Assembly (NCBI GenBank): GCA_002928965.1
Contig: PERU01000002.1
Span: 1-64,000 of the forward strand
From: Methylomonas sp.
GTDB lineage: Bacteria > Pseudomonadota > Gammaproteobacteria > Methylococcales > Methylomonadaceae
Reading direction: 5' to 3'
DNA: 64,000 nucleotides
Shown one piece after another: positions 357 to 15,173 of this stretch. Positions within the stretch are counted from its first letter, which is position 1. Each line of letters opens with the position of its first letter. The position numbers were made by a program, and so were the translations under genes. The notes beneath the pieces were generated by a model. The model had not been told where the DNA came from and ran no database searches. It worked only from the letters and a program-made list of their open reading frames with translations.

Positions 357-1259
357 TTATCTAAAAAAATGTTGGTGTCTGGCTTTGTCGTGAAATTCAT
401 CCAGGTCAGTGATGAGATCACAGTATTTAGCAGTGGCCGGATGCAAATTGTACCAATAGTTGGCGCCGGAGCCTGCCAGCCAGATTTTGGTGGTGTTGGT
501 TTGGGCAAAATCCAATAATTTCTGCAATTCCTGCAAGGTCTGTCTCTCAGGCGGATTTTTGACCATTCCCAAAACAATCACGTCAGGCTTTAGATTTTTA
601 CTGGCGTCGATGATATCCAGGCTGGGTAAATCAGGGCCTACATAGTAGCAGGTGTATTGCTGAGCGGCGGCAATCATGCAGCCTAATAAAATGCCGAATT
701 CATGCGGCTCACCGCTGGGGGTGGCAAACATCATCGACGGATTGTGCTTGGAGGGTTGATGCAAATTGTTGACCATGGTCAGCACAATCCGTTTAACGCA
801 GCTGGAATACATGTGTTCCTGAGCGATATTGATTTTATCCTCGTGCCAGAGTTGACCGATCATTTGCAGCGACGGTAACAAAATATCCCTGGCATATTCC
901 AGGGGTTCAAATGCCATTAAAGCCTTTTTTAACAGCTGTTCAACCCGTTCGATTTGATACTGCTGCAAGGCCTCAATAATTTGATTGAACAAATTAGGTT
1001 GTGGCCGGTCCGTGTGTACAGACGTTTGATTTTGAAAATGTCGTAACTCCTCGCAGGACAAGTTGGCAATCTTACTGATGGCGTGACCGTTTTGGGTCAG
1101 ATTGACCAATAGTTTGAGTTTTTCCAAATCGGCTTGCGAATAAGACCGGCGACCGGTTTCGTTACGCTGGGGTGTAATGCAATCGTAACGGCGCTCCCAG
1201 GCTCTCAGGGTTTCGGCCGTCAGTCCGGTTAATGATGTGATTGCTTTGATTGAATACAT
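357..1259 (-). CDS. litR: CarH/LitR-type MerR regulator with cobalamin-binding photosensory domain
   Basis: This 300-aa protein has an N-terminal MerR winged helix (about residues 1-70, with the WERRY recognition region) and a C-terminal B12-binding module. The helical-bundle Wx9EH motif is intact (W138, E148, H149), as is the ExHxxG cobalamin motif (E184-PHEF-G189). Known CarH/LitR proteins use adenosylcobalamin to repress promoters in the dark and release them when light breaks the cofactor bond. I chose the ATG at 1259 because the MerR domain begins there; longer in-frame versions add unrelated residues and run into the divergent promoter. It is divergent from the sigma factor at 1352 and most likely represses it and itself. 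The functional assignment is from family motifs; the target genes are inference. Confidence 0.9.
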   Translation of the reverse strand: MYSIKAITSLTGLTAETLRAWERRYDCITPQRNETGRRSYSQADLEKLKLLVNLTQNGHAISKIANLSCEELRHFQNQTSVHTDRPQPNLFNQIIEALQQYQIERVEQLLKKALMAFEPLEYARDILLPSLQMIGQLWHEDKINIAQEHMYSSCVKRIVLTMVNNLHQPSKHNPSMMFATPSGEPHEFGILLGCMIAAAQQYTCYYVGPDLPSLDIIDASKNLKPDVIVLGMVKNPPERQTLQELQKLLDFAQTNTTKIWLAGSGANYWYNLHPATAKYCDLITDLDEFHDKARHQHFFR

Positions 1260-1269
1260 TTTGTTTATG

Positions 1270-1316
1270 TTTTGTACAAAAATAAGTTTGACAAAAATTC
1301 TACAGCATTGTATCTT
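1270..1316 (+). promoter_or_regulatory. sigma-70-type promoter with upstream palindrome for the sigma factor gene
   Basis: TTGACA at 1288-1293 and TATCTT at 1311-1316 are separated by exactly 17 bp, pointing at the sigma factor gene. Six bases upstream of the -35 is a perfect 12-bp palindrome, TTTTGTACAAAA (1270-1281), containing TGTACA. The whole intergenic stretch between the divergent genes is only 92 bp, so repressor binding here could affect both directions. On the minus strand TTGTCA with AACATA at 17-bp spacing is a possible promoter for the regulator itself. Confidence 0.65.
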
Positions 1317-1351
1317 CGATTCCAACCTAATCTTCAACCCGGTGAAAAACA

Positions 1352-2605
1352 ATGTCAGAACTATCCGAAGTGGTTAATCAAACAGCCAGCACCGCTAGCG
1401 AATCCGAACAAGTGATTTTGGCATCCCGTGTTGAATATTCACGCCAGCAGTTGTTGAAAATACTGTTAAAAAACAATTATGTAGCAAGTTATATCGTTAA
1501 GCAGCTGCTTAACGATCTGAGCAAATCAACTGATAATTCAGATATTTTGCTGATAAAAAACAACGAAGCCTATAAAGATTCGTTACAACAACTGATTGCT
1601 GAGTTTGCCGACCAAGCACCGTTAGTCAATGTCGGTAAATCACTTAGCAAAGTTAATGTTGTACAAGATTATAACTTTGTACAGGTTTCAAGTGTTGAGA
1701 ACATCGAGCTGATTGATATTTCTGCTGTTGCCATGGGCATCCTGCACAAGTTGCATTTCCTGTCTGTCTACCTGCTTGAAGTCAGTGAAGTAGTTGAACG
1801 TAAGCTGAAAAAAATGGGGCATCTCGAGTCAGTTTATAAAAACGAACTGCAATATTGCCGCTACGAATTGAAGCATTTGCGTCAGGAAATGATTGCCAGT
1901 AACACCGGTCTGGTGGGTTTTGTAGCGCACAAGTACAAAACCGTGTCATTGAGCTTTGAAGATTTGATGCAGGAAGGTATGGTGGGTTTGATCAAAGCTG
2001 TCGATCGATTCGATCCTGAGCGCGGCAACTGCTTTTCAACCTATGCCATTTACTGGATCAGGCAGGCGATTTCCAGATTGATCGTCAAGCAGGACAAAGT
2101 GGTGCCATTGCCGGTTGCCCTGGCTGAGAAATCTTCACCGATCTTTGAAGCGATGCGCAACACCTATCTACAGCATGAACGCTGGCCAACCCTGGCAGAA
2201 CTGAAAGCCAGTTGCGATCTCTCAGAACAAGATATCAAAACCATCAGCAGTTATTATCAATCCACTTATTTGCAGGACACCAGCGCCAGCGAAGATGACG
2301 ATGGCATGTTGATGATGGAAAAAATGCAGCAACAGCAGTTTTCTCAGCCACTGGATGATTTGATTGACACAGATCTGGCCAGTTATATGGATAGAGCAGT
2401 TGCCACTTTGCCCGAAAAGCAGGCCACTATCCTGGCGATGCGATTCGGTTTAAAAAATCACACCGAGATGACGTTACAAGCCGTCGCAGACCAGTTGCAG
2501 GTTACTCGGGAACGGGTCAGACAGATACAAAACGAAGCCCTGCAAAAACTCAAGCAACAATTTGGTTTTGATCTTATGCTGTTTTTGGAACCAAACGATA
2601 CCTAA
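1352..2605 (+). CDS. RpoD-family (group 2/3, non-ECF) RNA polymerase sigma factor
   Basis: This 417-aa sigma-70 family protein has a divergent N-terminal 180 residues and then a clear region 2 (about 183-245, including FEDLMQEGMVGL and FSTYAIYWIRQAI). Region 3 follows, and region 4 lies near residues 350-405, ending in a helix-turn-helix with TRERVRQIQNEALQKLK. The presence of region 3 and the length exclude the ECF class. It is not housekeeping RpoD, which is longer and carries a region 1.1 not seen here; RpoS and RpoH signatures are not obvious to me. Its promoter lies against the CarH/LitR gene and hflK follows 108 bp downstream without a visible strong terminator. I infer a light-derepressed alternative sigma factor; its promoter preference cannot be read from the sequence. 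Confidence 0.85.
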   Translation: MSELSEVVNQTASTASESEQVILASRVEYSRQQLLKILLKNNYVASYIVKQLLNDLSKSTDNSDILLIKNNEAYKDSLQQLIAEFADQAPLVNVGKSLSKVNVVQDYNFVQVSSVENIELIDISAVAMGILHKLHFLSVYLLEVSEVVERKLKKMGHLESVYKNELQYCRYELKHLRQEMIASNTGLVGFVAHKYKTVSLSFEDLMQEGMVGLIKAVDRFDPERGNCFSTYAIYWIRQAISRLIVKQDKVVPLPVALAEKSSPIFEAMRNTYLQHERWPTLAELKASCDLSEQDIKTISSYYQSTYLQDTSASEDDDGMLMMEKMQQQQFSQPLDDLIDTDLASYMDRAVATLPEKQATILAMRFGLKNHTEMTLQAVADQLQVTRERVRQIQNEALQKLKQQFGFDLMLFLEPNDT

Positions 2606-2713
2606 AGACTCTTTAATTAGGCTGTTAACCCGAAATCCGCCAATGCGGTAAGTTTTACCAAACAATAACAAACGATGCCGATGTCTGGCTAAAACGTAAC
2701 AAGAGGAGTGATT

Positions 2714-3877
2714 ATGTCATCTGAAAACCACAACACTGATAAACAAACACCGCCGCCTGATTGGAAAATGGAGTTTGAAAAGCAATGGAAAGCGATTTCC
2801 GATAAGACGGTGGATTTCTATCACGAACATGAAAGTTTATTTTCGTTGTCGAAAATTGCCAGCATCCTGGGCGGCTCTTTGGCCCTGGCTTGGTTGATCA
2901 GTGGTGTATACATCATTGATGAAGGTAATCGTGGCGTAGTCACTCGCTTTGGTGCTTACACAGAAACCACTATGCCTGGACCGCATTGGCATGTGCCGCT
3001 GCCGATCGAGTCGGTCAGTGTAGTCAATGTCGAGCAACAGCGTTTTATCGAAGTGGGTTACAGCGATGCAGCCCGTACCAGTAAATCCTCGGTGGTGCCG
3101 CAAGAATCATTGATGCTGACTTCCGATGAAAACATCATTGCCGTGCGTTTGGCGGTGCAATATCAAATCAACAGCGCCAGTGATTATTCCTTCAATGTCA
3201 AAAGCAGCGAACATACCCTGAAGCAACTGACAGAAAGTGTGTTGCGGGGTGTAATTGGTCGCAACAACATGGATTATGTGCTGACCGAAGGACGTAGTCA
3301 GATCGTTGCGGAAATCAAAGAAGAAATCCAAAAGGCCATGGATGATTACAAGGCGGGTATCGTTATAGCCAGTGTCAACTTGCAGGATGCGCAGCCGCCT
3401 GAAGAAGTGCAGGGCGCATTCGAAGACGCGATTCGGGCACGTGAAGATAAACAGCGATTGATCAATGAAGCAGAAGCGTACAGCAACGAGATTATTCCAA
3501 AATCGCGTGGTGCTGCTGCCCGGATTTTGCAGGAAGCCGAAGCCTACTCAGCTGAAAAAGTAGCCAAAGCCAAAGGTGAAACCGAACGCTTTGACCAGCT
3601 GTTGGTGGAATATGAGAAAAATCCTGCCATTACCCGCAAACGTCTGTATCTGGAAGCCAAAGAAAGACTCTATAGCTCCACCAATAAAATTGTTGTGGAT
3701 ACCGATCAACCACCTGCCATGTATCTGCCTATGCAACAGTCTGTCTCGCATAGTGCCGCGCCAAGTTCAGTCACGAACGAGCCGGACTTGAATGTCGAGT
3801 CGCGTAATTCGGCTGACAAGAACAGCTCACACGGCAAAGTATCTTCCAACGAGTTGCGTCCAAGCAGGAGCAGATAA
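2714..3877 (+). CDS. hflK: HflK-like SPFH protein, FtsH modulator subunit
   Basis: This 387-aa protein has a cytoplasmic N-terminus, one membrane segment (about residues 47-70) and an SPFH/band-7 domain beginning DEGNRGVVTRFG. An alanine- and glutamate-rich helical stretch with the RAREDKQRLINEAEAYSNEI pattern follows. HflK assembles with HflC into a large periplasmic cage around FtsH and tunes its proteolysis. The ATG at 2714 follows an AGAGGAG ribosome site; an upstream in-frame GTG lies inside that site. The stop overlaps the hflC start (TAATG). The proline- and glycine-rich N-terminus of typical HflK is short here. It sits with hflC and ftsH, not near hfq-hflX, suggesting a paralogous set. 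Confidence 0.88.
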   Translation: MSSENHNTDKQTPPPDWKMEFEKQWKAISDKTVDFYHEHESLFSLSKIASILGGSLALAWLISGVYIIDEGNRGVVTRFGAYTETTMPGPHWHVPLPIESVSVVNVEQQRFIEVGYSDAARTSKSSVVPQESLMLTSDENIIAVRLAVQYQINSASDYSFNVKSSEHTLKQLTESVLRGVIGRNNMDYVLTEGRSQIVAEIKEEIQKAMDDYKAGIVIASVNLQDAQPPEEVQGAFEDAIRAREDKQRLINEAEAYSNEIIPKSRGAAARILQEAEAYSAEKVAKAKGETERFDQLLVEYEKNPAITRKRLYLEAKERLYSSTNKIVVDTDQPPAMYLPMQQSVSHSAAPSSVTNEPDLNVESRNSADKNSSHGKVSSNELRPSRSR

Positions 3878-4737
3878 TGAACAAAGTACAAGTTATGTTT
3901 CCAGTTGGTTTGGGCTTTTTAGCGCTGGCCTCCATGTCGGTTTTCCATGTCAATCAGCATGAGAGAGCCATTATGTTTCGTCTTGGGGAGATGGTCACAA
4001 CAGACCTGAAACCCGGGCTCCATTTTAAGACCCCCATCATCAATAATGTCAGTACGTTTGATGCGCGCGTGCTGACCTTGGATGCTAAATCCGAGCGTTT
4101 TCTTACCTCCGAAAAGAAGAACGTTATTGTTGACTCGTTCGTCAAGTGGCGAATCGGTGATGTGGGTCTTTTTTACACCACGGTGGGTGGCGATGAATTT
4201 CAAGCAAATCTTCGCCTAGACCAAATCATGAAAGATGCCATGCGCAGTGAGTTTGGCGTTAGAACGATCAAGCAATTGATCTCTGAGGATCGCAGCGAAT
4301 TGCGCGACACTTTGTTGGCCAAATTGTCGCCAGCAGCCAATAAATTTGGTATCGAACTGATAGATATTCGTATCAAACGTATTGATTTGCCACCGGAAGT
4401 CAGTAGCTCGGTTTACCAAAGGATGCGTGCAGAGCGGGAACGGGTCGCCAGGGAATTTCGTTCGCAAGGCGCTGAAAGTGCAGAGTTGATCAGTGCTGAA
4501 GCTGACAAACAAAAACAGGTGATTGTGGCAAATGCACAACGAGAAGCTGAAAACGTGCGTGGTCGTGGTGATGCTGAATCGGCGGAAATTTATGCGAAAA
4601 GCTATGGAAAAAACCCTGAGTTCTATGCGTTTCACCGCAGCTTGCAAGCCTACCAAGCGTCATTTGAAAAAACCCAGGACACTTTGGTGTTAAAACCAAA
4701 CTCCGATTTTTTCAAATATTTCTCCAGCGAAAAATAA
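3877..4737 (+). CDS. hflC: HflC-like SPFH protein, FtsH modulator subunit
   Basis: This 286-aa protein has an N-terminal membrane anchor (residues 6-22), then an SPFH domain starting VNQHERAIMFRLGE. The conserved helical region RMRAERERVAREFRSQGAE and a C-terminal segment containing FYAFHRSLQAYQ are typical of HflC. It partners HflK around FtsH in the inner membrane. Its start codon overlaps the hflK stop, so translation is probably coupled. Length matches the family. ftsH begins 17 bp downstream. Confidence 0.88.
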   Translation: MNKVQVMFPVGLGFLALASMSVFHVNQHERAIMFRLGEMVTTDLKPGLHFKTPIINNVSTFDARVLTLDAKSERFLTSEKKNVIVDSFVKWRIGDVGLFYTTVGGDEFQANLRLDQIMKDAMRSEFGVRTIKQLISEDRSELRDTLLAKLSPAANKFGIELIDIRIKRIDLPPEVSSSVYQRMRAERERVAREFRSQGAESAELISAEADKQKQVIVANAQREAENVRGRGDAESAEIYAKSYGKNPEFYAFHRSLQAYQASFEKTQDTLVLKPNSDFFKYFSSEK

Positions 4738-4754
4738 GTTAGGAGAACCTAATC

Positions 4755-6656
4755 ATGAAAAAGTTTTTATATTTTGCCTTGGTCATTGCGGTAATAGGCG
4801 TTGCAGTATCATCGATACTGAATCGCAATATGCCGCAGTATGATCCCCATTTCGAGATTTCCTATTCGGATTTTATTGAGGATGTCCGCAATAAAGTGGT
4901 AACAGAGGTGGTTGTCGACGGTAATTATGTCGATGGCACCCGCAACAACGGCACCCGCTTCTCTACCTACAACCCGAACGACATGCGGATGATCGACGAG
5001 TTGTTGGAATATGGCGTGAAAATCAAAGTGGAAAAGCCACAACAGCCATCTACTTTGATGAATATCCTGATTTCATGGGCCCCGACCTTGTTGCTGATTG
5101 CGGTACTGGTGTACTTCATGCGCAAACAATCCCAAGCGATGGGAGGGCGTGATGGTCAAATGGGCTTTGGTAAAAGCCGTGCCAAATTGATGGAAGAAAA
5201 TCAGGTCAAGATCCGCTTCAAAGATGTCGCGGGTTGCGAAGAGGCTAAGCAAGATGTAGTCGAGATGGTGGATTTTCTGAAAGATCCCGGCAAATACGAA
5301 GCCTTGGGCGGCAAAATTCCTCGCGGTGTATTGATGGTAGGTCCTCCGGGTACAGGTAAAACCTTGTTGGCCAAAGCCATTGCGGGTGAGGCCGGTGTAC
5401 CGTTCTTCTCCATCTCAGGTTCGGACTTCGTGGAAATGTTTGTGGGTGTAGGGGCTTCCAGGGTACGTGATATGTTCACCGAAGCCAAAAAACGCGCACC
5501 TTGCATTATTTTCATTGACGAGATCGATGCGGTCGGCAGACAGCGTGGCGGCGCCGGCATGGGTGGCGGTAATGAAGAACGCGAGCAAACCCTCAACCAG
5601 TTATTGGTCGAGATGGATGGTTTCAGCGGCAGTGAAGGTATCATTGTTATCGCAGCTACCAACCGCTCTGACATTTTGGACAAAGCCTTGTTGCGTCCGG
5701 GTCGTTTCGATCGTCAGGTACAAGTCGGTTTGCCAGACATCAAAGGCCGTGAGCAAATTCTTAAAGTTCATGGGGAACGCGTGCCGCTGGCTGAAGATGT
5801 CAATATCAACGATCTTGCCCGGGGTACACCAGGATTTTCCGGTGCTGAATTAGCTAACTTGATCAATGAAGGTGCGTTGTTTGCTGCACGTAACAACAAA
5901 CGTGTAGTCACCATGAATGATCTTGATAAAGCCCGCGACAAAATGATCATGGGTGCAGAAAAACGCACCATGATCATGAGTAAGGAAGATTTGCTGATGA
6001 CCGCCTATCACGAAGCAGGTCATGCAATTGTGGGTCGAATGGTGCCCGAACATGATCCCGTCTATAAAGTCAGCATCATGCCGCGCGGTGGCGCTTTGGG
6101 TATTACCATGTTCTTACCGGAACGTGATTCCTACAGTGCCAGCAAAGATAAACTGGAAAGTCAGATTGCCAGTTTGTTTGGAGGTCGGGTGGCAGAAGCC
6201 TTGATTTATGGCAAAAACAAAGTCACTACCGGTGCTTCAAATGACATCATGCGCGCTACCCAGTTGGCCAGAAACATGGTGACCAAATGGGGTTTGTCCG
6301 ATCGTTTGGGACCGATGGACTACGGTGATAACGAAGGTGGTTACATGGGGCCGCAATCCAAACCGATGTCCGAGAAAATGGCTGAAACCATTGATGAGGA
6401 AATCCGTTCTGTGATTGATGCCAACTACAACAAGGCTGAGGAAATTCTGAAAGATCACATCGAAATTCTGCACAACATGGCCTATGCGTTGTTGGATTGG
6501 GAAACCATCGATAAATACCAAATAGATGAGTTGATGCAAGGTAAAAAGCTGGCACCGCCAGAACCCGAGCCTGAGCCTGAAGTGCTTGAGGCAGCAATCG
6601 AGCTCGATGACGATCAGGAACAAACACTATCGCAAGAACCTGTTCTGACGTCATAA
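4755..6656 (+). CDS. ftsH: ATP-dependent membrane zinc protease FtsH
   Basis: This 633-aa protein has two N-terminal membrane segments (about 4-22 and 104-122) around a periplasmic domain. It has an AAA+ domain with Walker A GPPGTGKT (196-203) and Walker [10 protein letters not shown], the second region of homology near [21 protein letters not shown], and an M41 protease domain with HEAGH at 419-423. FtsH degrades misassembled membrane proteins and regulatory proteins. The RBS AGGAGA precedes the ATG. The gene directly follows hflK-hflC and ends at a strong terminator, so the three form a unit downstream of the sigma gene. This location is unlike the usual ftsH neighbourhood beside rlmE and folP; I infer a second, condition-specific copy. 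Confidence 0.93.
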
Positions 6657-6673
6657 ATGTCCTCCTCTATGTG

Positions 6674-6709
6674 CCCTCCCAACGTTGTACTCCGGGAGGG
6701 TATTTTTTT
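6674..6709 (+). terminator. Rho-independent terminator after ftsH
   Basis: CCCTCCC (6674-6680) and GGGAGGG (6694-6700) form a perfect 7-bp GC-rich stem with a 13-base loop, followed at once by a T-rich tract to 6709. It lies 18 bp after the ftsH stop and only 20 bp before the next start, so the next gene must be read by read-through or from a very close promoter. Confidence 0.85.
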
Positions 6710-6729
6710 AAAAACAAGAGGTATCGCCC

Positions 6730-7149
6730 ATGAATACCCACACTTTAACCAACGCATCTTTAAATGTTGTAAAAATCCTGTTGCAGGTAAATTTCAATGC
6801 CTCGGTGATTTTTGTGTTGCTGGCGAGTTTATTGACATTGACTGGAAGTGAATTCTTTTTTGATAACAATAGCGATCTCTATGGGCCATTAGCCAATAAT
6901 TTACGAATGGTATTGGTATATTTGTTCCTGGTGCAATTGGCTGTATACGGCTTTTATCAAGTGAGTAGTAATTACGGTGCCGTTGTGGTTTTAGGCGCTT
7001 TTTTGTTGGTATTGATTGGTGCTTTAGAGTTTTATTGTTCAGTTAACCAAATCGAAGTTGATGAAAATTATCAAAGTTTATTTTTGTATGCCGGACTCTC
7101 GCATTTTTTATATGGCGGTCTGTGTGTCTTAATGAAAAATGAGCAATAA
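6730..7149 (+). CDS. small four-helix membrane protein of unknown function
   Basis: This 139-aa protein has roughly four hydrophobic segments (about 22-40, 58-76, 80-100 and 115-135) and few charges. I do not recognise the family. It begins 20 bp after the ftsH terminator with an AAGAGG-like ribosome site upstream. A 225-bp gap separates it from the ten-gene run that starts at 7375. Its position between two light-locus units makes a membrane role in the same response conceivable, but nothing in the sequence shows a function. Confidence 0.7.
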   Translation: MNTHTLTNASLNVVKILLQVNFNASVIFVLLASLLTLTGSEFFFDNNSDLYGPLANNLRMVLVYLFLVQLAVYGFYQVSSNYGAVVVLGAFLLVLIGALEFYCSVNQIEVDENYQSLFLYAGLSHFLYGGLCVLMKNEQ

Positions 7150-7374
7150 CGGCTATCCCTATCTAATTCAACTGTCAGTAGTGTTTGATTGCTATTTGCC
7201 AAACGGTTTGATGAGGAACTTTTGGTTTGACTGAAAAATTATTTTAAGTCACTGATTTTTAAAATAACTTTTTATTTAAGCTTGATTGAACGATTCAGTG
7301 CGATAATCATCGAAATGGTTTTGAAACGATATTATAAAGGTTGATCTTATCAACTCTACTCTGGGGGAATATCA

Positions 7375-7854
7375 ATGCAACTGAAGTTACCGTTCGAATC
7401 AGCTAAATCGGTTGTGGGTGAAGCAACTATTGAAATCGATAAATCAGCAAATGAGGTATTTGCTTTTGTTGGGGAAGGGTTTTTTAACAATTACCCAAGA
7501 TGGGCTGTTGAGGTAGTGCAATTTGAACCTCTCGATGGTGAAAAAGTGTTCGTGGGTGCCAAGGCCAAACAGGTACGCAAAGATAACGATAATGAAGCAG
7601 AAATTGAGTCAGTTTTTGAAATTACTGATTTTCAACCCTGTGAAAAACTATCGTTAAAAGGCATAAAGGAACCGTATAAGCAAAGTTACATTTTAGAAGA
7701 CATTGAAAAAAGTAAGCCTACCCGATTAACTTTTCGATTTGAATTGCTGGAGCTGGAAATTTTTATGCGGCCTTTCGAAAAGTTAATTAGATACGCGATT
7801 GAAGATGGTGCTGAAAATACTGTCGAAAATATTAAAAATTTAATAACAGCATAA
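7375..7854 (+). CDS. SRPBCC (START-like) superfamily protein
   Basis: This 159-aa protein has the pattern of a polyketide-cyclase/START fold: an N-terminal VVGEATIEIDKSANEVFAFV strand-helix, a central KQVRKDN region, and a C-terminal amphipathic helix with GAENTVENIKNLI. Such proteins bind hydrophobic ligands in a deep cavity. A GGGGGA ribosome site precedes the ATG. It is the first gene of a ten-gene same-strand run with gaps of at most 43 bp, directly upstream of the LOV gene, suggesting a lipid or pigment ligand in the light response. The ligand is unknown. Confidence 0.75.
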   Translation: MQLKLPFESAKSVVGEATIEIDKSANEVFAFVGEGFFNNYPRWAVEVVQFEPLDGEKVFVGAKAKQVRKDNDNEAEIESVFEITDFQPCEKLSLKGIKEPYKQSYILEDIEKSKPTRLTFRFELLELEIFMRPFEKLIRYAIEDGAENTVENIKNLITA

Positions 7855-7897
7855 TGTTATTAATCATAATTATAAAAGTATTTATTGGAGTGCGGGC

Positions 7898-8347
7898 ATG
7901 AATTTTATTGTTGACAAAGATTCCGGAATAATTCCGCAAGTATTATCCGCAATTCTGGATGAGTGTGTTAATGGGGTAACTTTAGCCGATCCGGATTTGG
8001 AAGATGCGCCCATAGTGTATGCTAATAAAGCCTTTGAGCGCCTGACTGGCTATACACAAGAGGATATTATTGGACATAACTGCCGTTTTTTACAAGGTGA
8101 AGACAGGGAACAATCTGCCCGGTTTGAAATAGCTGCAGCCATGAAAAAACACGAAGGTGTTGAGGTAACATTAAGAAATTACAAAAAAGACGGCACCCTG
8201 TTTCACAATCATTTGAAAGTAATACCTTTGTTTGATAGGAAGCACAGAGTTATTTATTATCTTGGTGTGCAATATGATATAACCCAAAAAGTTAATGCCG
8301 ATAATGAAATAAAATCACTGTCCGCATTGTTAAATGCTGACAAATAA
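7898..8347 (+). CDS. short LOV-domain blue-light photoreceptor
   Basis: This 149-aa protein is a single PAS/LOV domain with short terminal helices. The flavin signature GHNCRFLQG (residues 59-67) contains the adduct-forming Cys62. RNY (N94), the HNH region (N104) and GVQYD (Q125) supply the usual flavin-contact asparagines and glutamine. Blue light forms a cysteine-flavin adduct in this family. No effector domain is fused, so signalling must be by protein contact, as in the short LOV proteins of Pseudomonas putida. Those have, to my knowledge, been linked to LitR-type regulators. An AGTGCGGG ribosome site precedes the start. Co-location with a CarH/LitR gene gives this locus two photoreceptor chemistries. 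Confidence 0.92.
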   Translation: MNFIVDKDSGIIPQVLSAILDECVNGVTLADPDLEDAPIVYANKAFERLTGYTQEDIIGHNCRFLQGEDREQSARFEIAAAMKKHEGVEVTLRNYKKDGTLFHNHLKVIPLFDRKHRVIYYLGVQYDITQKVNADNEIKSLSALLNADK

Positions 8348-8385
8348 AAAATAATAAGTCAGTTGCTGTTATAAGGGGGGGGATT

Positions 8386-9213
8386 ATGGGCGGTCTACAA
8401 CACTCAAATGATGGCGATATGGGCTCTATTGGTTTTTTATTTGCGCTTGCAATAATCGCTTTTTTGTTATTATTGGCTTTAGAGAAATATAAACCCTATC
8501 GAAACTTTTCACATAAAGTCTATAAAGAATCAATTGTTACCAATACTACCGCATTTTTAGTAAATAACGTTATTTTAACCATACTAAGGGCCTCTTCGTT
8601 ATTTTTAGTGGCTCAGCAGTTTTCGGGGTTTGGTTTATTGGCCGGACTGGACAATGGCCCGTTAAAGTGGTTATTGGCTTTTGCATTTTTTGATCTGGCA
8701 ATCTACGGCTGGCATTTTGCGAGTCATAAATATGAATGGTTGTGGCGCTTTCATAAAGTCCATCATAGTGACAAAAGCTTCAATGTTTCTACCGGTTTTC
8801 GTTTTCACGTATTGGATTTATTGCTTGAAATTCTATACAAATGTACATTTGTAATTGTATTTGGGGTGGATGCTTATCTGGTATTGTCTATAGAAATTGT
8901 CGAATTGTTTTTTATTTTCTTTCATCATGCCAATATCAAGGTGCCTAACGAGCAATCCATATCTAATTATATTATTACCCCTTGTTTGCATCGGACCCAT
9001 CACTCCACTTTACGGGTAGAGCACGATAGTAATTACGGTATAGTCTTGTCAGTTTGGGATAGATTTTTTGGGACTCGAAAAGAACTGGTTCCAGTCAATA
9101 TTGGTTTGGATTTGATTGAAGCTGAAAATTTCATTCAGTTGTTCTCATTGGCCTTTATTACGGAACGAAAAATAAGACAGCTCTTTAGATTAATACCTAA
9201 AGGTAAAAAGTAG
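8386..9213 (+). CDS. fatty acid hydroxylase / sterol desaturase family membrane di-iron protein
   Basis: This 275-aa protein has several membrane segments and the family histidine boxes: HFASH (H110, H114), HKVHH (H123, H126, H127), H141, FFHHAN (H180, H181) and HRTHH (H202, H205, H206). These ligate a di-iron centre that oxygenates lipid chains or rings. The substrate cannot be read from the sequence. It lies 38 bp after the LOV gene and 42 bp before msrP. Membrane-lipid modification during light or singlet-oxygen stress is my inference. A perfect 16-bp palindrome lies inside the gene at 8837-8852. Confidence 0.85.
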   Translation: MGGLQHSNDGDMGSIGFLFALAIIAFLLLLALEKYKPYRNFSHKVYKESIVTNTTAFLVNNVILTILRASSLFLVAQQFSGFGLLAGLDNGPLKWLLAFAFFDLAIYGWHFASHKYEWLWRFHKVHHSDKSFNVSTGFRFHVLDLLLEILYKCTFVIVFGVDAYLVLSIEIVELFFIFFHHANIKVPNEQSISNYIITPCLHRTHHSTLRVEHDSNYGIVLSVWDRFFGTRKELVPVNIGLDLIEAENFIQLFSLAFITERKIRQLFRLIPKGKK

Positions 9214-9255
9214 TATTTTCCTGTTTTTGATGCAGATTAGCCTTGGTGAGAACGG

Positions 9256-10212
9256 ATGATCATAAAAACCAATAAAACGATTCCGGCTAGTGAAATTACT
9301 GATCCTTTGATATTTAGTCAGCGTCGTAAAATTATTAAAGCTTTATTGGCCGGCACCTTGTTACCCTCGGCAATTGGTAATGTTTCTGGTAAAACCAATA
9401 AATCCAAGTGGCCTGACATAATAAAAAATGAAAACTCCATTGATTCGGAAATATTAACACCTGTTAATCTAGTAAAAAACTATACAAATTATTATGAATT
9501 TTCCTTTAATAAAGAAGATTCAACTGAGTTGGCACAAAATCTTAAAACCGATAACTGGACTATCGAAATGGCCGGGGAAATTGAAAAGCCTGGTCATTAT
9601 CAACTGGAAGATATTCTGAAACAGCAGCAATTACAGGAGTTTGTGTATCGTTTCCGCTGCGTAGAAGCGTGGTCTATGGTCATTCCCTGGGTGGGATTTC
9701 CGTTAGCGGATTTGATAAAAACGCTCAAACCCTTATCCACTGCCAAGTTTGTCAAATTTACCTCAATTTATCAGCCGGATATCATGCCCAAACAACGTAT
9801 CAATGCCATGCTGGAGTGGCCTTATACGGAGGCATTGCGTATTGATGAAGCGGTGCATCCTTTAACTGTTATGGCGGTGGGCATGTATGGTGATGTATTG
9901 CCCAAACAAAACGGAGCGGCACTAAGGTTGGTAGTCCCATGGAAATATGGGTTTAAAAGCATCAAGGCTGTGGTCAAAATCGAGTTCTTAAAAAAAGCCC
10001 CGTTGACCACTTGGCATGCGTATGCCCCCATGGAATACGGTTTTTATGCCAATGTTAATCCTGCAGTGCCTCATCCGCGCTGGAGCCAGTTTAGCGAAAG
10101 GCAATTGGCTAGCGGTTATTTCACGCCGCGTCGGCAGACGGAGTTGTTCAATGGTTATGCTGAACACGTGGCATCCTTATACAGCAACATGGACCTGCAG
10201 CATTTTTACTGA
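9256..10212 (+). CDS. msrP: MsrP-type periplasmic molybdopterin methionine-sulfoxide reductase subunit
   Basis: This 318-aa protein carries a twin-arginine-like signal (R23-R24, then KIIKALLAGTLLPSA). It has a sulfite-oxidase-fold Moco domain with the ligand cysteine in FRCVEAWSMVIPW and the C-terminal WKYGFKSIK, ADL and TTW motifs of YedY/MsrP. MsrP reduces oxidised methionine in periplasmic proteins using electrons from MsrQ. The last base of the stop overlaps the msrQ start (TGATG). In this operon it fits repair of photo-oxidised envelope proteins. Confidence 0.9.
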   Translation: MIIKTNKTIPASEITDPLIFSQRRKIIKALLAGTLLPSAIGNVSGKTNKSKWPDIIKNENSIDSEILTPVNLVKNYTNYYEFSFNKEDSTELAQNLKTDNWTIEMAGEIEKPGHYQLEDILKQQQLQEFVYRFRCVEAWSMVIPWVGFPLADLIKTLKPLSTAKFVKFTSIYQPDIMPKQRINAMLEWPYTEALRIDEAVHPLTVMAVGMYGDVLPKQNGAALRLVVPWKYGFKSIKAVVKIEFLKKAPLTTWHAYAPMEYGFYANVNPAVPHPRWSQFSERQLASGYFTPRRQTELFNGYAEHVASLYSNMDLQHFY

Positions 10213-10853
10213 TGTTAATGCGTATCAATAATGCATGGATAGTCATTTCAATAGGCTGTTTAATACCGCTGTTCTGGCTATTGCTGGATATTGTCAGCGA
10301 TAACTTGGGTTCAAATCCGATTCAAGCCATTCATATTCGCTTGGGGGATTGGTCATTACGTTTCTTGTGTCTTACGCTGGCAGTTACTCCTATTCAAACC
10401 ATGACCAAATGGAAGGGAATGAGTGACTATCGGCAAATGTTGGGGTTGTATGCATTTTTTTACGCCACCCTACATCTGTTAGGTTATTTATTTATCGATC
10501 ATGCCGGCGTATGGCAAGTCATTGGTATTGATATTTTTGAAAGTCCTTACATCTGGTTTGGCGTTGTCTCTTACACAATAGTGTTCTTATTGGCAATTAC
10601 CTCCCCCAAGTATGCTAAAAAACAGTTAGGTAAAAACTGGAAGAAACTGCATAGATTTATTTATTATTCTGCAGTCGCAGCCGTGATTCATTATTTATGG
10701 CAACTTAAAGGTAATTTATTTCAACCTTTATTTTATTTGACCATCATTATATTTTTATTGGGCTTTAGAGTTTTGGTCTGGCTGAAAAATAGGCAATTAA
10801 GTAAATTGATGGTACCAAAAGGCCGCTTGGTAACTCTTGATGATAACGATTGA
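10212..10853 (+). CDS. msrQ: MsrQ-type heme b membrane subunit
   Basis: This 213-aa integral membrane protein has about six helices and the YedZ/MsrQ pattern: HIRLGDWSLRFL, the conserved histidine in YATLHLLGYL, and H residues in WKKLHRFIYY and VIHYLW that bind heme. It passes quinol electrons to MsrP. The start overlaps the msrP stop; a second ATG two codons on is also possible. Length matches the family. Confidence 0.9.
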   Translation: MLMRINNAWIVISIGCLIPLFWLLLDIVSDNLGSNPIQAIHIRLGDWSLRFLCLTLAVTPIQTMTKWKGMSDYRQMLGLYAFFYATLHLLGYLFIDHAGVWQVIGIDIFESPYIWFGVVSYTIVFLLAITSPKYAKKQLGKNWKKLHRFIYYSAVAAVIHYLWQLKGNLFQPLFYLTIIIFLLGFRVLVWLKNRQLSKLMVPKGRLVTLDDND

Positions 10854-10886
10854 AGCCGTTTTTCATAGGCTTACTGGAGCAGCAGC

Positions 10887-11801
10887 ATGTCAAACAAATC
10901 CATTCTAATTACCGGGGGCACCGGTTTTCTCGGAACCGCTCTAACCTTCCAATGCTTGCAGCAAAATTACCAAGTGACAGTATTGGGTCGAAGTTCAGAC
11001 AAAATCATCCGCGCATTTGGTAATCAAGTTAAAGCTGTAACGGGTATTGAAGATTTGCCGGATGCTGGCAGTTTTTATGCAGTGGTGAATTTGGCCGGTG
11101 CGGGTATTTTTGACCAGCGTTGGAATGCTGCCCGTAAACACGTGTTGCGTCAAAGCCGTATTTCGCTAACCCAGCAACTCGTTGATTGGATTGCTCGCTC
11201 AGATGCGGTGCCAACTGTTTTGGTCAGTGGATCAGCAATTGGGTTTTACGGTGAACATGGCGACGAAACATTAACGGAAACCAGTCAACCCAAGCCGGAT
11301 TTCTCCCAACAGTTATGTGCAGATTGGGAACAGGTGGCCTTGCAAGCTGAAACCATGAACACTCGCGTCTGTTTAATCCGTACCGGTTTGGTATTGGGCG
11401 TTGGCGGCGGCTTGTTGAAGCGGATGCTGTTACCTTTTCGTTTGGGGCTGGGTGGTCGACTTGGCACTGGTCAACAATGGATGTCGTGGATACATCTAAA
11501 GGACTGGCTGGCGATTGTGCAACTGATGATCGATAATCCGGCTTTGCAGGGTGCGTATAATGCCACGGCCCCGGCGCCAGTCACCAATCAGGTGTTCAGT
11601 GCTACCTTGGCGGCCGTGTTAAAGCGACCTATGCTGATGCCTTTGCCGGAAATAGGACTTAAATTGTTATTGGGCGAAATGGCCGAACTGGTTTTGGGCA
11701 GTCAGAGGGTTATGCCTCAACGCTTGCTAGAGGCGGGTTTCTTGTTTCAATACCCCCAATTGGAACCAGCACTTCATAATGTTCTAACATCACAAAAATA
11801 A
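10887..11801 (+). CDS. YfcH/TIGR01777-family NAD-dependent epimerase-like protein
   Basis: This 304-aa extended SDR has the nucleotide-binding motif ITGGTGFLGTAL at residues 7-18, then NLAGAGIFDQRWNAARK and SGSAIGFYG, and the family C-terminus with MPQRLLEAGFLFQYP. The substrate is unknown for the family. Homologues often sit with photolyase and lipocalin genes in light-responsive clusters, and here it precedes both. A GGAG ribosome site lies before the start. Confidence 0.88.
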   Translation: MSNKSILITGGTGFLGTALTFQCLQQNYQVTVLGRSSDKIIRAFGNQVKAVTGIEDLPDAGSFYAVVNLAGAGIFDQRWNAARKHVLRQSRISLTQQLVDWIARSDAVPTVLVSGSAIGFYGEHGDETLTETSQPKPDFSQQLCADWEQVALQAETMNTRVCLIRTGLVLGVGGGLLKRMLLPFRLGLGGRLGTGQQWMSWIHLKDWLAIVQLMIDNPALQGAYNATAPAPVTNQVFSATLAAVLKRPMLMPLPEIGLKLLLGEMAELVLGSQRVMPQRLLEAGFLFQYPQLEPALHNVLTSQK

Positions 11802-11810
11802 TAATTCATC

Positions 11811-12323
11811 ATGTTAATTCAAAGCCTGACCTTGTTATTTAACTTTACTTCGTTCATCAGTTGGTACGAAGCATTGACCGTAGCCCTGGCTATCGCCATC
11901 CTGACCTATAGCATCACCCCGGCTGTTCTCGATGATTGGGAAGAACGTAACCCACCTACGTTGTACTTTTATTTGCAATGGAGTTGGCTGGGTTATTTGA
12001 AGCTTAAAGATGCGTTCTGGCCATTTTTTATTTTGTTTAATGGTATTTTGATTTATATCGATTATCGGGTGGGTGAGGGCACATTCACTGTAGCCAGCTG
12101 GTTTACCATGCACGTGATTATGGCCATGCCGCTGATTTATTGGACGGGTGCAGTCTGGCGGTGTTCCAAAAACTGTCCTAGCCGGATTTGGGCAACGGTT
12201 GCACGTTCGATAACCCTGCTGGCGTATTGCGAATACGCACTGCGCTGGGTGATCTATAAGTATTACCCCAACATTCTTTTTAGTTGCGAACAGATGATAA
12301 TCCACTGGGGTGATTGCGTGTAG
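11811..12323 (+). CDS. membrane protein of unknown function in the photolyase operon
   Basis: This 170-aa protein has about four hydrophobic helices separated by short loops, with conserved-looking WEERNPP, QWSWLGYLKL and CSKNC stretches. I do not recognise it with certainty. It lies 9 bp after the SDR gene and 6 bp before the photolyase gene, so it is almost certainly co-translated with both. No convincing Shine-Dalgarno precedes it, which supports coupling. A role in the light response is inferred only from position. Confidence 0.75.
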   Translation: MLIQSLTLLFNFTSFISWYEALTVALAIAILTYSITPAVLDDWEERNPPTLYFYLQWSWLGYLKLKDAFWPFFILFNGILIYIDYRVGEGTFTVASWFTMHVIMAMPLIYWTGAVWRCSKNCPSRIWATVARSITLLAYCEYALRWVIYKYYPNILFSCEQMIIHWGDCV

Positions 12324-12329
12324 CCTGCA

Positions 12330-13697
12330 ATGAGCAAAGCGTATTCAACTTCGTTGTTTATATTTCGGCGTGATTTGCGTCTGTTTGATAATTCCGGCCT
12401 CAACGCAGCGCTGCAACAGTCTGATCACGTCATAGCCTGTTTTATTTTTGATCCTTGCCAGATCAATATTCACCCTTATCAAAGCCAACCGGGTTTGCAG
12501 TTTATGCTGGAATCCTTGCAGGATTTGCAGCAGCAGTGTCAGCAATTCGGTTTTGAATTGAATCTGTTTCACGCTGCACCGCAAGCTGTGATTGCCAAAT
12601 TGCATCAGCAGCACGGCATTGAAGCAGTATTTGTTAACCGCGATTACACCCCGTTTAGCCGTCAACGCGATCACAGCTTGCAACGCTATTGTGATGAGCG
12701 CAAGCTGGATTTCCATAGTCATGGCGATGCGTTATTGAATGAACCCGAACAAAAGCTCAAAGCTGATGGCGGGGCGTATCAGGTGTTTACAGCGTTTTAC
12801 AATCGCGCCAGTTTATTGCCAGTGGGTCTGCCGCAGAGTTTGGTAAACGGTTCATTTTTAAAGGTCTGTGAAGCTGAAAGTAGCGAATGCATCTTTCAGT
12901 TTAAGAGGCAGCATGCCAATCCTTTGCAGGGTGGCCGCGATGCAGTCATGCCATTGCTTGACAATCTGGCAGCCTATCTTAACTATACAGAACAGCGGGA
13001 TGTCCCGGCTATCAATGCAACCAGCCAGCTATCCGCCTATCTGAAGTTTGGTTGTTGCTCGATCAGAGAAGCCTATTATGCCGTTGTGCAGCAGTTGGGC
13101 AGCCAACATGCCTTGTTACGGCAATTTTACTGGCGGGATTTTTTTAGCCACATTGCCTACCATTTCCCGCAGGTATTCGGCCATGCTTTTCATACACGTT
13201 ATGACCAGATTCAATGGCGAAATGATAAAGATGAATTTCAGGCTTGGGCGGACGGGCGCACCGGTTTTCCGATTGTCGATGCCGGCATGCGGCAATTAAA
13301 TCAAACCGGCTGCATGCATAACCGGGTGCGGATGATCGTCGCCTCTTTTTTAGTGAAGGATTTACAGATCAGTTGGCGCTGGGGTGAACGTTATTTTGCC
13401 CAGCACTTAATTGATTACGATCCTTGTGTGAATAACGGCAATTGGCAATGGGCTGCCTCAACCGGTTGCGATGCCCAGCCATATTTTCGGATTTTCAACC
13501 CCTGGCTGCAGCAAAAGAAATTTGACGCCGAATGCGCCTACATCAAGCGTTGGGTGCCGGAATTAACCAACTACTCGCCAGCGATCATTCATAACTGGTT
13601 TAAAAAACCATTGACTTGTGGCTACCCGCCGCCCATGCTGGATCACGGCTTGCGTAGTCAGCAGACAAAAGCCTTGTTTCAGCAAGCCAGCCAATAA
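12330..13697 (+). CDS. phrB: deoxyribodipyrimidine photolyase (class I CPD photolyase family)
   Basis: This 455-aa protein has an N-terminal antenna-binding alpha/beta domain starting with FIFRRDLRLFDN. Its C-terminal FAD-binding helical domain contains LRQFYWRDFF, GRTGFPIVDAGMRQL, MHNRVRMIVASFL, DYDPCVNNGNWQW and RIFNPW. These are the conserved FAD and lesion-contact motifs of CPD photolyases, which split cyclobutane pyrimidine dimers with blue light. Length is typical. It sits in the ten-gene run, 13 bp before the lipocalin gene. Confidence 0.93.
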   Translation: MSKAYSTSLFIFRRDLRLFDNSGLNAALQQSDHVIACFIFDPCQINIHPYQSQPGLQFMLESLQDLQQQCQQFGFELNLFHAAPQAVIAKLHQQHGIEAVFVNRDYTPFSRQRDHSLQRYCDERKLDFHSHGDALLNEPEQKLKADGGAYQVFTAFYNRASLLPVGLPQSLVNGSFLKVCEAESSECIFQFKRQHANPLQGGRDAVMPLLDNLAAYLNYTEQRDVPAINATSQLSAYLKFGCCSIREAYYAVVQQLGSQHALLRQFYWRDFFSHIAYHFPQVFGHAFHTRYDQIQWRNDKDEFQAWADGRTGFPIVDAGMRQLNQTGCMHNRVRMIVASFLVKDLQISWRWGERYFAQHLIDYDPCVNNGNWQWAASTGCDAQPYFRIFNPWLQQKKFDAECAYIKRWVPELTNYSPAIIHNWFKKPLTCGYPPPMLDHGLRSQQTKALFQQASQ

Positions 13698-13710
13698 ATC
13701 AAGGAAATCT

Positions 13711-14229
13711 ATGTTGCGTTATCTGTTAATCATAATATTGATGGGAGTTTCCGGTTGCACCGGCATCCCGGAAGGTGTGACGCCGGTCAGTGGTTTTGAG
13801 CTGAACCGCTATTTGGGCACTTGGCATGAAATCGCCAGGCTGGATCACAGTTTTGAACGGGGATTGACCGATGTTACCGCTGAGTACAGTCTGCGGGATG
13901 ATGGCGGCGTCAAGGTGCTGAATAGCGGTTTTAACAGCCAGGAAAACAAACGTAATCAAGCGGAGGGCAAGGCCTATTTCTTAGAAACGCCGGATGTCGG
14001 GCGTCTAAAAGTGTCTTTTTTTGGGCCTATTTACGGTGCCTACAACATCGTCGCATTGGATAAGGAAAATTATCAGTATGTGATGATTGCGGGACCGAAC
14101 ACAGATTATTTATGGATTTTGGCCCGGCAGCCCACCCTGGATGTACAGGTATTAAAAAGCTTGGTACTGCAAGCACACGCCTGGGGGTTTCCAACGCAGG
14201 ATTTGATTTATTTACAACCTGAACATTAA
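13711..14229 (+). CDS. blc: Blc-type bacterial lipocalin, lipoprotein
   Basis: This 172-aa protein has a lipoprotein signal with the lipobox region MGVSGC and the lipocalin fold signature YLGTWHEIARLDHSFERG, followed by GPIYGAYNIVALD and YLWILARQP. Bacterial Blc proteins are outer-membrane lipoproteins that bind lysophospholipids or fatty acids. I chose the ATG at 13711 because the signal peptide begins there and AAGGAAA precedes it; the longer frame overlaps phrB. It ends 2 bp before the next gene. Lipid handling would fit with the hydroxylase earlier in the run. Confidence 0.9.
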   Translation: MLRYLLIIILMGVSGCTGIPEGVTPVSGFELNRYLGTWHEIARLDHSFERGLTDVTAEYSLRDDGGVKVLNSGFNSQENKRNQAEGKAYFLETPDVGRLKVSFFGPIYGAYNIVALDKENYQYVMIAGPNTDYLWILARQPTLDVQVLKSLVLQAHAWGFPTQDLIYLQPEH

Positions 14230-14231
14230 AT

Positions 14232-15173
14232 ATGGACAAGATTTTAGTTGGCATCAGCAGCTGTCTATTAGGTAATTTGGTGCGCTACGACGGTGCACAT
14301 AAATACAACAGTTACATCGAACGCACCTTAGGCCAGTATTTTGAATTTAAAGCCTTTTGTCCGGAAGTTGACGCCGGTTTGGGGACGCCGCGTCCCGCTG
14401 TACAGTTACGGGAAATCGGCCAGCATATTCGGGTGGTAGGCGTAAAGGATCATACCCTGGATGTCACTGAGCCATTAAAACAGGTGGGTGAACGACAACG
14501 TCACTGGCTGGAAGGCCTGTGTGGATACATTCTAAAAAAAGATTCGCCCAGTTGCGGTATGGAACGCGTAAAAGTGTATATCAACGACATCCCTGCCAGG
14601 GCAGGAGTGGGGATATTCGCCGATTTTTTACAGCAACAGTTTCCAACTTTGCCCATTGAAGAAGAGGGGCGTTTAGGCGACCCTGCCTTGAGAGAGAATT
14701 TCATCCAGCGGGTGTTCGTAAGGCATCGCTGGCAGCAGCTATGTCAAAGTCCGTTAACGGCGCATGGTCTGATGCGCTTTCATAGTCGGCATAAATTGAT
14801 CGCCATGAGTCATGATCAAAACCGTGCCAGAGAGTTGGGACGGCTGATAGCGGATGTGCGCACAGACAACATCAACGACATTGCCCAGCGGTACATTACC
14901 GAGTTGATGGCTTGCCTGAAAATCGTCGCCACCCGTGGCAACCACGTCAATGTGCTGCAACACATTCAAGGCTATTTGAAACGTAGTATCGATACCGATG
15001 ACAAACAGGAGTTGACGGACACTATCGAAATTTACCGGCAAGGTACTGTGCCGTTGATTGTGCCTTTGACTTTGTTGCGCCATCATTTTCGTAAACAGCC
15101 GGATGTATTTATCGACGAATCTTTTTATATGACGCCGCATCCGGCAGAATTATCGTTACTCAACCAAATTTAA
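14232..15173 (+). CDS. DUF523-DUF1722 (YbgA-like) fusion protein
   Basis: This 313-aa protein has an N-terminal DUF523 domain (ISSCLLGNLVRYDGAHKYN; conserved cysteines, CPEVDAGLGTPRP and KKDSPSCGMERV). Its C-terminal DUF1722 domain contains LMRFHSRHKLIAMSHDQ and LRHHFRKQPD. Biochemical function is not established to my knowledge. YbgA-like genes commonly accompany photolyase and LitR-type genes, so placement at the end of this operon is consistent. It is the last gene of the ten-gene run; the following 78 bp has no strong terminator. Confidence 0.9.
   Translation: MDKILVGISSCLLGNLVRYDGAHKYNSYIERTLGQYFEFKAFCPEVDAGLGTPRPAVQLREIGQHIRVVGVKDHTLDVTEPLKQVGERQRHWLEGLCGYILKKDSPSCGMERVKVYINDIPARAGVGIFADFLQQQFPTLPIEEEGRLGDPALRENFIQRVFVRHRWQQLCQSPLTAHGLMRFHSRHKLIAMSHDQNRARELGRLIADVRTDNINDIAQRYITELMACLKIVATRGNHVNVLQHIQGYLKRSIDTDDKQELTDTIEIYRQGTVPLIVPLTLLRHHFRKQPDVFIDESFYMTPHPAELSLLNQI

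Follow-up and report, generated by a model that had tools for sequence, protein, structure and literature searches.

What does a vitamin B12-dependent light sensor control in a methanotroph? The question is raised by a locus in the 64-kb window analyzed here, the first 64,000 nucleotides of contig PERU01000002.1 in the 4.03-Mb genome of Methylomonas sp. (GCA_002928965.1), where litR, the gene of a CarH/LitR-type repressor, diverges from a sigma factor gene followed by hflK, hflC and ftsH, with a short LOV photoreceptor encoded further downstream. The original prediction, made from this DNA alone, was a light-response locus in which green and blue light are integrated at one promoter. We computed the gene order, the fold and cobalamin signature of LitR, two types of predicted LitR site with their conservation, and the loss of one of these sites where LitR is missing. 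We consider it probable that in the dark LitR represses the sigma-hflK-hflC-ftsH operon through two sites, O1 at the promoter and O2 inside the sigma gene, and that light releases this repression.

By predicted fold and light signature, LitR is a CarH-type B12 sensor. Pfam recognizes the MerR_1 domain (PF13411, E 3.7e-16) and the four-helix B12 cap (B12-binding_2, PF02607, E 1.4e-13). The closest solved relative by sequence is Thermus CarH (E 2e-27), and the predicted structure (mean predicted local distance difference test score, pLDDT, 88.6) has as its top fold match 5c8e, full-length Thermus CarH with adenosylcobalamin (AdoCbl) and DNA (E 1.2e-17). The Rossmann B12-binding domain is recognized by fold, its matches to cobalamin-binding domain structures having template modelling scores, by target length, of mostly 0.80-0.84. 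The B12 light signature is given as GxxW, EH, GxxH and GxxxP (PMC11796333). All four motifs are present in the window's LitR, plus the axial His and, after the Trp, the His that in Thermus CarH turns into the upper ligand. None of 53 LitR relatives has lost Trp, EH or the axial His. The His after Trp is altered in three of them (L099, L100 and L128), and seven rows (L102-L108) have N, D, Y or E in place of the Gly of GxxH. The losses that mark class II LitR, of the Rossmann B12 domain and of the B12 signature, are not seen in the window's protein; a LitR that keeps its B12 motifs next to a short LOV protein had been predicted, and signature and fold bear this out. CobA/BtuR, which makes AdoCbl, is encoded in 19/19 same-genus genomes searched, the window's own included, and in 24/31 overall. 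This LitR was found in 33 same-genus genomes, the nearest named loci being those of Methylomonas sp. SURF-2, WSC-6 and M. lenta (73-75% identity), and a search of the own genome for a second copy returned LitR itself only. Since relatives' matches begin at ATG 1259, this is the most likely litR start, and not the TTG at 1352 originally chosen.

The order of litR on the left, divergent from sigma-hflK-hflC-ftsH on the right, is kept in Methylomonas, Methylobacter and their relatives. We compared 53 of 60 close LitR relatives (left out were G112, G241, G243, G257, G209-C67, G247 and G252). The sigma gene accompanies litR in 52, ftsH in 51, hflC in 47, hflK in 43 and all four in 43; some stretches stop early, so these are lower bounds. 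The linkage is above chance, as judged from the sigma and ftsH counts, and the predicted conservation of the neighborhood in related methanotrophs thus holds. The gene of a 139-amino acid protein is found in 46 of the 53 loci. Where 16 kb or more were available on that side (28 loci), all 28 have sigma, ftsH and the 139-amino acid protein, 14 have the LOV module, 18 photolyase and 14 RudS. The original prediction, which took the locus as one unit, had left out hflK-hflC-ftsH (2708-6656), yet these genes belong to the conserved core. It had correctly called the sigma factor RpoD-like: Pfam finds regions 2 and 4, the relatives are of RpoD/RpoS type, and the protein shares 33-35% identity with the two most similar of the genome's other sigma factors, which we interpret as RpoD and RpoS. 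Residues near what we take to be regions 2.4 and 4.2 are retained, and region 1.2 of RpoD/RpoS, again by our naming, is unaligned. The own genome carries two further ftsH copies (66% and 46%); hflK has a close relative there at 60% and a distant one at 31%. Just 3' of ftsH is a hairpin (z -3.5) that most relatives in the alignment share. The operon therefore probably stops at this point, and the LOV module would be transcribed separately.

Outside the order, 39 LitR loci (L227-L265) lack sigma, hflK, hflC and the operator, and two of them have weak ftsH matches (28-31%); short, GC-rich contigs are common among them, which makes the absence weak evidence. A class-wide search of 369 genomes at E 1e-40 gave three genomes, namely the own one, a second from the same family, and G317 (33%).

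Where would LitR bind? The litR-sigma gap of 92 bp holds the sigma promoter and a face-to-face litR promoter candidate. With the CarH-type 11-bp repeat consensus (PMC8156234) we find three repeats on the plus strand (1250-1282; 4, 5 and 4 of 5) plus, on the minus strand, a perfect pair (1284-1305); together we call them O1. A tandem pair at 9/10 or better is present in 40 of the 53 regions (shuffles 1%), and an opposite-strand pair in 31 (shuffles 0.8%) or, at 8/10, in 46 (shuffles 10%). The O1 core has a single match in the window, and three of the window's seven tandem repeat pairs fall in O1. We take the O1 repeats as CarH-type predicted LitR sites over the litR and sigma promoters. In two lineages (L104 and L112) the repeat has expanded into three or four tandem copies, all of them perfect or nearly so.

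The second site, O2, was missed by the original prediction. It lies about 310 bp into the sigma coding sequence and has the same sequence as the footprinted operator of P. mendocina PmlR2; the Pseudomonas LitR operator is given as T(G/A)TACA-N12-TGTA(C/T)A (PMC9758184). O2 is the sole match at one mismatch or fewer in the window, where 0.36 are expected. Of 53 sigma genes, the window's own plus 52 from relatives, 44 carry it exactly, all at one alignment column and in one reading frame, and in L082 it fits the TRTACA form; the spacer varies freely. The codons were examined on all rows, none chosen for the site, with 124 testable columns. The two O2 Val codons are GTA in 50/51 and 46/46 Val cells, ranking 1 and 2 of the 124 columns in uniformity, and the preceding codon ends in T in 53/53 and 52/53; the GTA share of the gene's other Val codons is 15%. 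Codon tests on exact-site rows were set aside, as 100% arises there by construction. Six of eight same-genus genomes contain the exact pattern, each a single time and inside the sigma gene, and whole-genome search found none in G063 and G040; a reversed control pattern has one match in G000 and no match in the other seven. The sigma N-terminus before O2 (1352-1660) is strongly variable in length and sequence; O2 stays, at nucleotide 225 to 480.

Further evidence comes from sigma paralogues without litR, six of which (L166-L171), in Methylomonas-group genomes, were hand-picked from the sigma matches. Five are followed by hflKC-ftsH and L166 is not. In all six, O2 is missing, and so is the VQx4VQ motif that it encodes. 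In the tree they nest within the LitR-linked sigma clade at two strong and perhaps three places, as read off the printed tree, in which the fork separating L166 is not starred. The site thus goes when LitR goes. Four of them (L167, L168, L170 and L171) share a remnant, ATT GTT CAA ... GTA AAA, in which half-site 1 was lost by a synonymous change from GTA to GTT. These loci look like the same module as the core, under some other control.

From the sites, their conservation and the nature of LitR we infer LitR binding, the light response, the direction of control, a contribution of O2 and a sigma regulon, as follows. In the dark, AdoCbl-dependent LitR would repress the divergent sigma-hflK-hflC-ftsH operon, and probably litR too, by binding O1 over the overlapping promoters and O2 inside the sigma gene. 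In CarH, light removes the adenosyl group and the tetramer dissociates (PMC8156234); here, light would likewise cleave adenosylcobalamin, LitR tetramers would fall apart and the operon would be expressed. The extra HflKC-FtsH complex would then clear damaged membrane proteins, and the sigma factor would turn on further genes. As for O2, bridging between O1 and O2 may occur, as fits a tetramer; an elongation roadblock is equally likely. In E. coli lac, a tetrameric repressor binds a promoter operator and an auxiliary O2 about 400 bp inside lacZ. A dark LitR tetramer bridging O1 and O2 would be a light-breakable counterpart of that loop, and, since O2 is the sole exact site of its kind genome-wide, the photoreceptor would have one strong target, through which it commands the extra HflKC-FtsH for membranes damaged by light. 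We advance this more specific version tentatively and doubt it more than we believe it. Unlike in lac, the repressor is one that light can break, the bridging is hypothetical and phasing is absent.

Several observations weigh against repression through O1 and O2. The cobalamin motifs had been called complete; the light signature stands, but the tail pocket motifs, which we take to be named SxL and GG, have diverged to GMV and GSG in the window, and PF02310 stays below threshold on LitR (18.2 bits where 32.1 are required, E 0.0023); at 0.01 it matches 22/23 aligned members. Tandem repeat pairs at 9/10 are not enriched in the window as a whole (seven, against 3-8 in shuffles). O2 carries one mismatch in six of the 53 sigma genes (L080, L120-L123 and L125) and is absent in two (L083 and L128). 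The alignment rows are related, so the counts are not independent: the 44 carriers of exact O2 form 25 clusters. Distances between O2 and the sigma -35 element range over 287-577 bp, with 26 distinct values and no helical phasing (p 0.82), which leaves a tight O1-O2 loop unsupported. Finally, O2 folds as an RNA hairpin in three rows (z -1.2 in the window, -3.3 in L076 and -4.2 in L101). Separately, several basal LitR relatives retain SxL and GG, which Methylomonas has lost, as though its LitR held the cobalamin tail in another way.

The best surviving alternative is close to the original prediction: blue light would activate the LOV protein to bind LitR as an anti-repressor, so that green light through B12 and blue light through LOV both free the sigma promoter. 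The LOV protein is as predicted, with an intact GHNCRFLQ motif, the photoactive Cys62 in 149 amino acids and no effector domain. Its best PDB matches include Pseudomonas short LOVs (5luv and 3sw1, presumably P. putida proteins). In P. mendocina, PmSB-LOV inhibits a class II LitR via its DNA-binding domain, and O2 has the operator sequence of PmlR2/PplR1 (PMC9758184), so a shared DNA-binding mode can be expected. LOV and LitR share one locus in 23 of the 53 cases. Their co-occurrence is commoner than not, so contact in vivo may exist, and by analogy it may be direct as in P. mendocina. However, the two genes are separable. LOV orthologues occur in 149/301 genomes of the order: in 50 of 60 with this LitR, in 54 of 77 with a distant LitR only and in 45 of 164 without a LitR match at E 1e-25. 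The ten that have this LitR and lack LOV include the near-complete G040, G080 and G115. In G116, G153, G054 and G160 the LOV gene lies elsewhere, accompanied by its own module, and O2 is exact in six loci whose genomes lack LOV (L094, L105, L109, L113, L124 and L126). LitR-type sites were found only around and inside the sigma gene, with none upstream of the LOV module at 7375: no tandem CarH repeat at 9/10 or better was found in 7150-7375, and an alignment for a conserved promoter upstream of 7375 gave just a GGGGG resembling a ribosome-binding site. Joint green and blue control at one promoter is thus not borne out, and we regard a dual input of this kind as unlikely.

Instead, the LOV gene appears to have company of its own. 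In 14 LOV loci away from this LitR, hand-picked from the LOV matches (L172-L185), the SRPBCC gene adjoins LOV in 14, the hydroxylase gene in 13 and msrPQ in 11, and a distant LitR is nearby in only one. As SRPBCC-LOV-hydroxylase-MsrPQ is kept at other loci, the module is a unit of its own; on the gene orders compared, it came to adjoin the sigma operon in Methylomonas and a few Methylobacter. Adjacency of LOV and LitR need not mean partnership, and the LitR-independent module is the place to seek the LOV partner. By adjacency the SRPBCC protein is the likeliest candidate; its predicted structure (pLDDT 57.6) is too poor for a fold search. In L182 (G051) there is a second arrangement, in which the LOV module adjoins a different, distant LitR (28%), photolyase and RudS.

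Could O2 act in RNA, its self-complementary half-sites forming a hairpin that governs how the sigma mRNA is translated or degraded? The three folds mentioned above speak for it, but of 12 pairs tested beyond the half-sites, 11 covary at the level of shuffles (the exception is the innermost pair, 19/500 shuffles), half-site changes are one-sided in L080, L082 and rows among L120-L125, and the O2 letters equal a footprinted DNA operator (PMC9758184); we find this very improbable. Least probable of all is that O2 is kept for the protein, VQxxxxVQ being a functional motif of the sigma N-terminus: it is in frame and conserved amid otherwise variable sequence, but the synonymous positions are frozen (GTA in 96/97 Val cells, a preceding T in 105/106 codons), and the paralogues without litR drop the motif, one group of them having altered its half-site synonymously.

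Repression through O1 and O2 can be compared with described systems. LitR-to-sigma cascades, class II LitR with short LOV proteins, and RudS in light operons (PMC11417400) are already known. In Streptomyces, a B12-based LitR controls the gene of the sigma factor LitS, which drives the light regulon (PMC12705666), and here too a B12-type LitR has predicted sites at a sigma gene. However, the Streptomyces sigma factor is described as extracytoplasmic function (ECF) type, with carotenoid genes downstream and LitR promoting litS in the light (PMC12705666), whereas here the sigma factor is RpoD-like, not ECF, leads hflK-hflC-ftsH and contains an intragenic operator. CarH of Thermus thermophilus and Bacillus megaterium resembles the window's LitR in fold, signature, AdoCbl cap, axial His and 11-bp repeats over the promoter; unlike in CarH, the repeats lie on both strands over divergent promoters, there is a distant intragenic site, and the tail pocket has diverged. 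With the Pseudomonas class II proteins PplR and PmlR the locus shares the operator sequence, a short LOV and photolyase/RudS-type neighbors (PMC9758184, PMC11417400). Those proteins do not bind B12 and are read out by LOV, whereas the window's LitR retains the B12 signature and LOV forms a module that is separable from it. In the open-access literature we recognized no description of LitR control over an RpoD-like sigma factor with HflKC-FtsH, nor of an intragenic LitR operator. If our reading is right, light triggers in this family of methanotrophs a membrane quality-control operon that has a private sigma factor, linking light to methanotroph membrane systems, a link we did not find described in that literature. 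An operator under such constraint in a coding sequence would be rare.

The coordinates are collected in the table. By gene content the predicted light-response locus stands: domain searches recover photolyase, MsrP, MsrQ, the lipocalin and the fatty-acid-hydroxylase-superfamily and SRPBCC-type proteins.

Table. Features of the locus, in positions of the window.
Feature	Position	Strand	Remark
litR, CarH/LitR-type B12 repressor, 300 amino acids	357..1259	-	ATG at 1259
O1, CarH-type 11-bp direct repeats (predicted LitR sites)	1250..1305	both strands	overlaps litR start codon and sigma -35
Sigma promoter, TTGACA-17-TATCTT	1288..1316	+	
Probable litR promoter, TTGGAA-17-TAGAAT	1297..1325	-	overlaps sigma promoter; consensus match only
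RpoD-like (group-2 type) sigma factor, 417 amino acids	1352..2605	+	
O2, candidate intragenic operator, TGTACA-N12-TGTACA	1660..1683		within sigma gene
hflK, second copy (SPFH)	2708..3877	+	
hflC (SPFH)	3877..4737	+	
ftsH, extra copy of membrane protease	4755..6656	+	
Terminator-like hairpin and T run 3' of ftsH	6671..6710	+	aligned in relatives
Conserved 139-amino acid protein	6730..7149	+	without Pfam match
SRPBCC protein (Polyketide_cyc2)	7375..7854	+	LOV module gene 1
Short LOV protein	7898..8347	+	Cys62
Fatty-acid-hydroxylase-superfamily protein	8386..9213	+	LOV module
msrP	9256..10212	+	
msrQ	10212..10853	+	
TIGR01777/ThyD-like NAD-binding protein	10887..11801	+	
DNA photolyase	12330..13697	+	
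Lipocalin (Blc type)	13711..14229	+	
RudS-type TudS-DUF1722 fusion	14232..15173	+	tRNA 4-thiouridine desulfidase family (PMC11417400)

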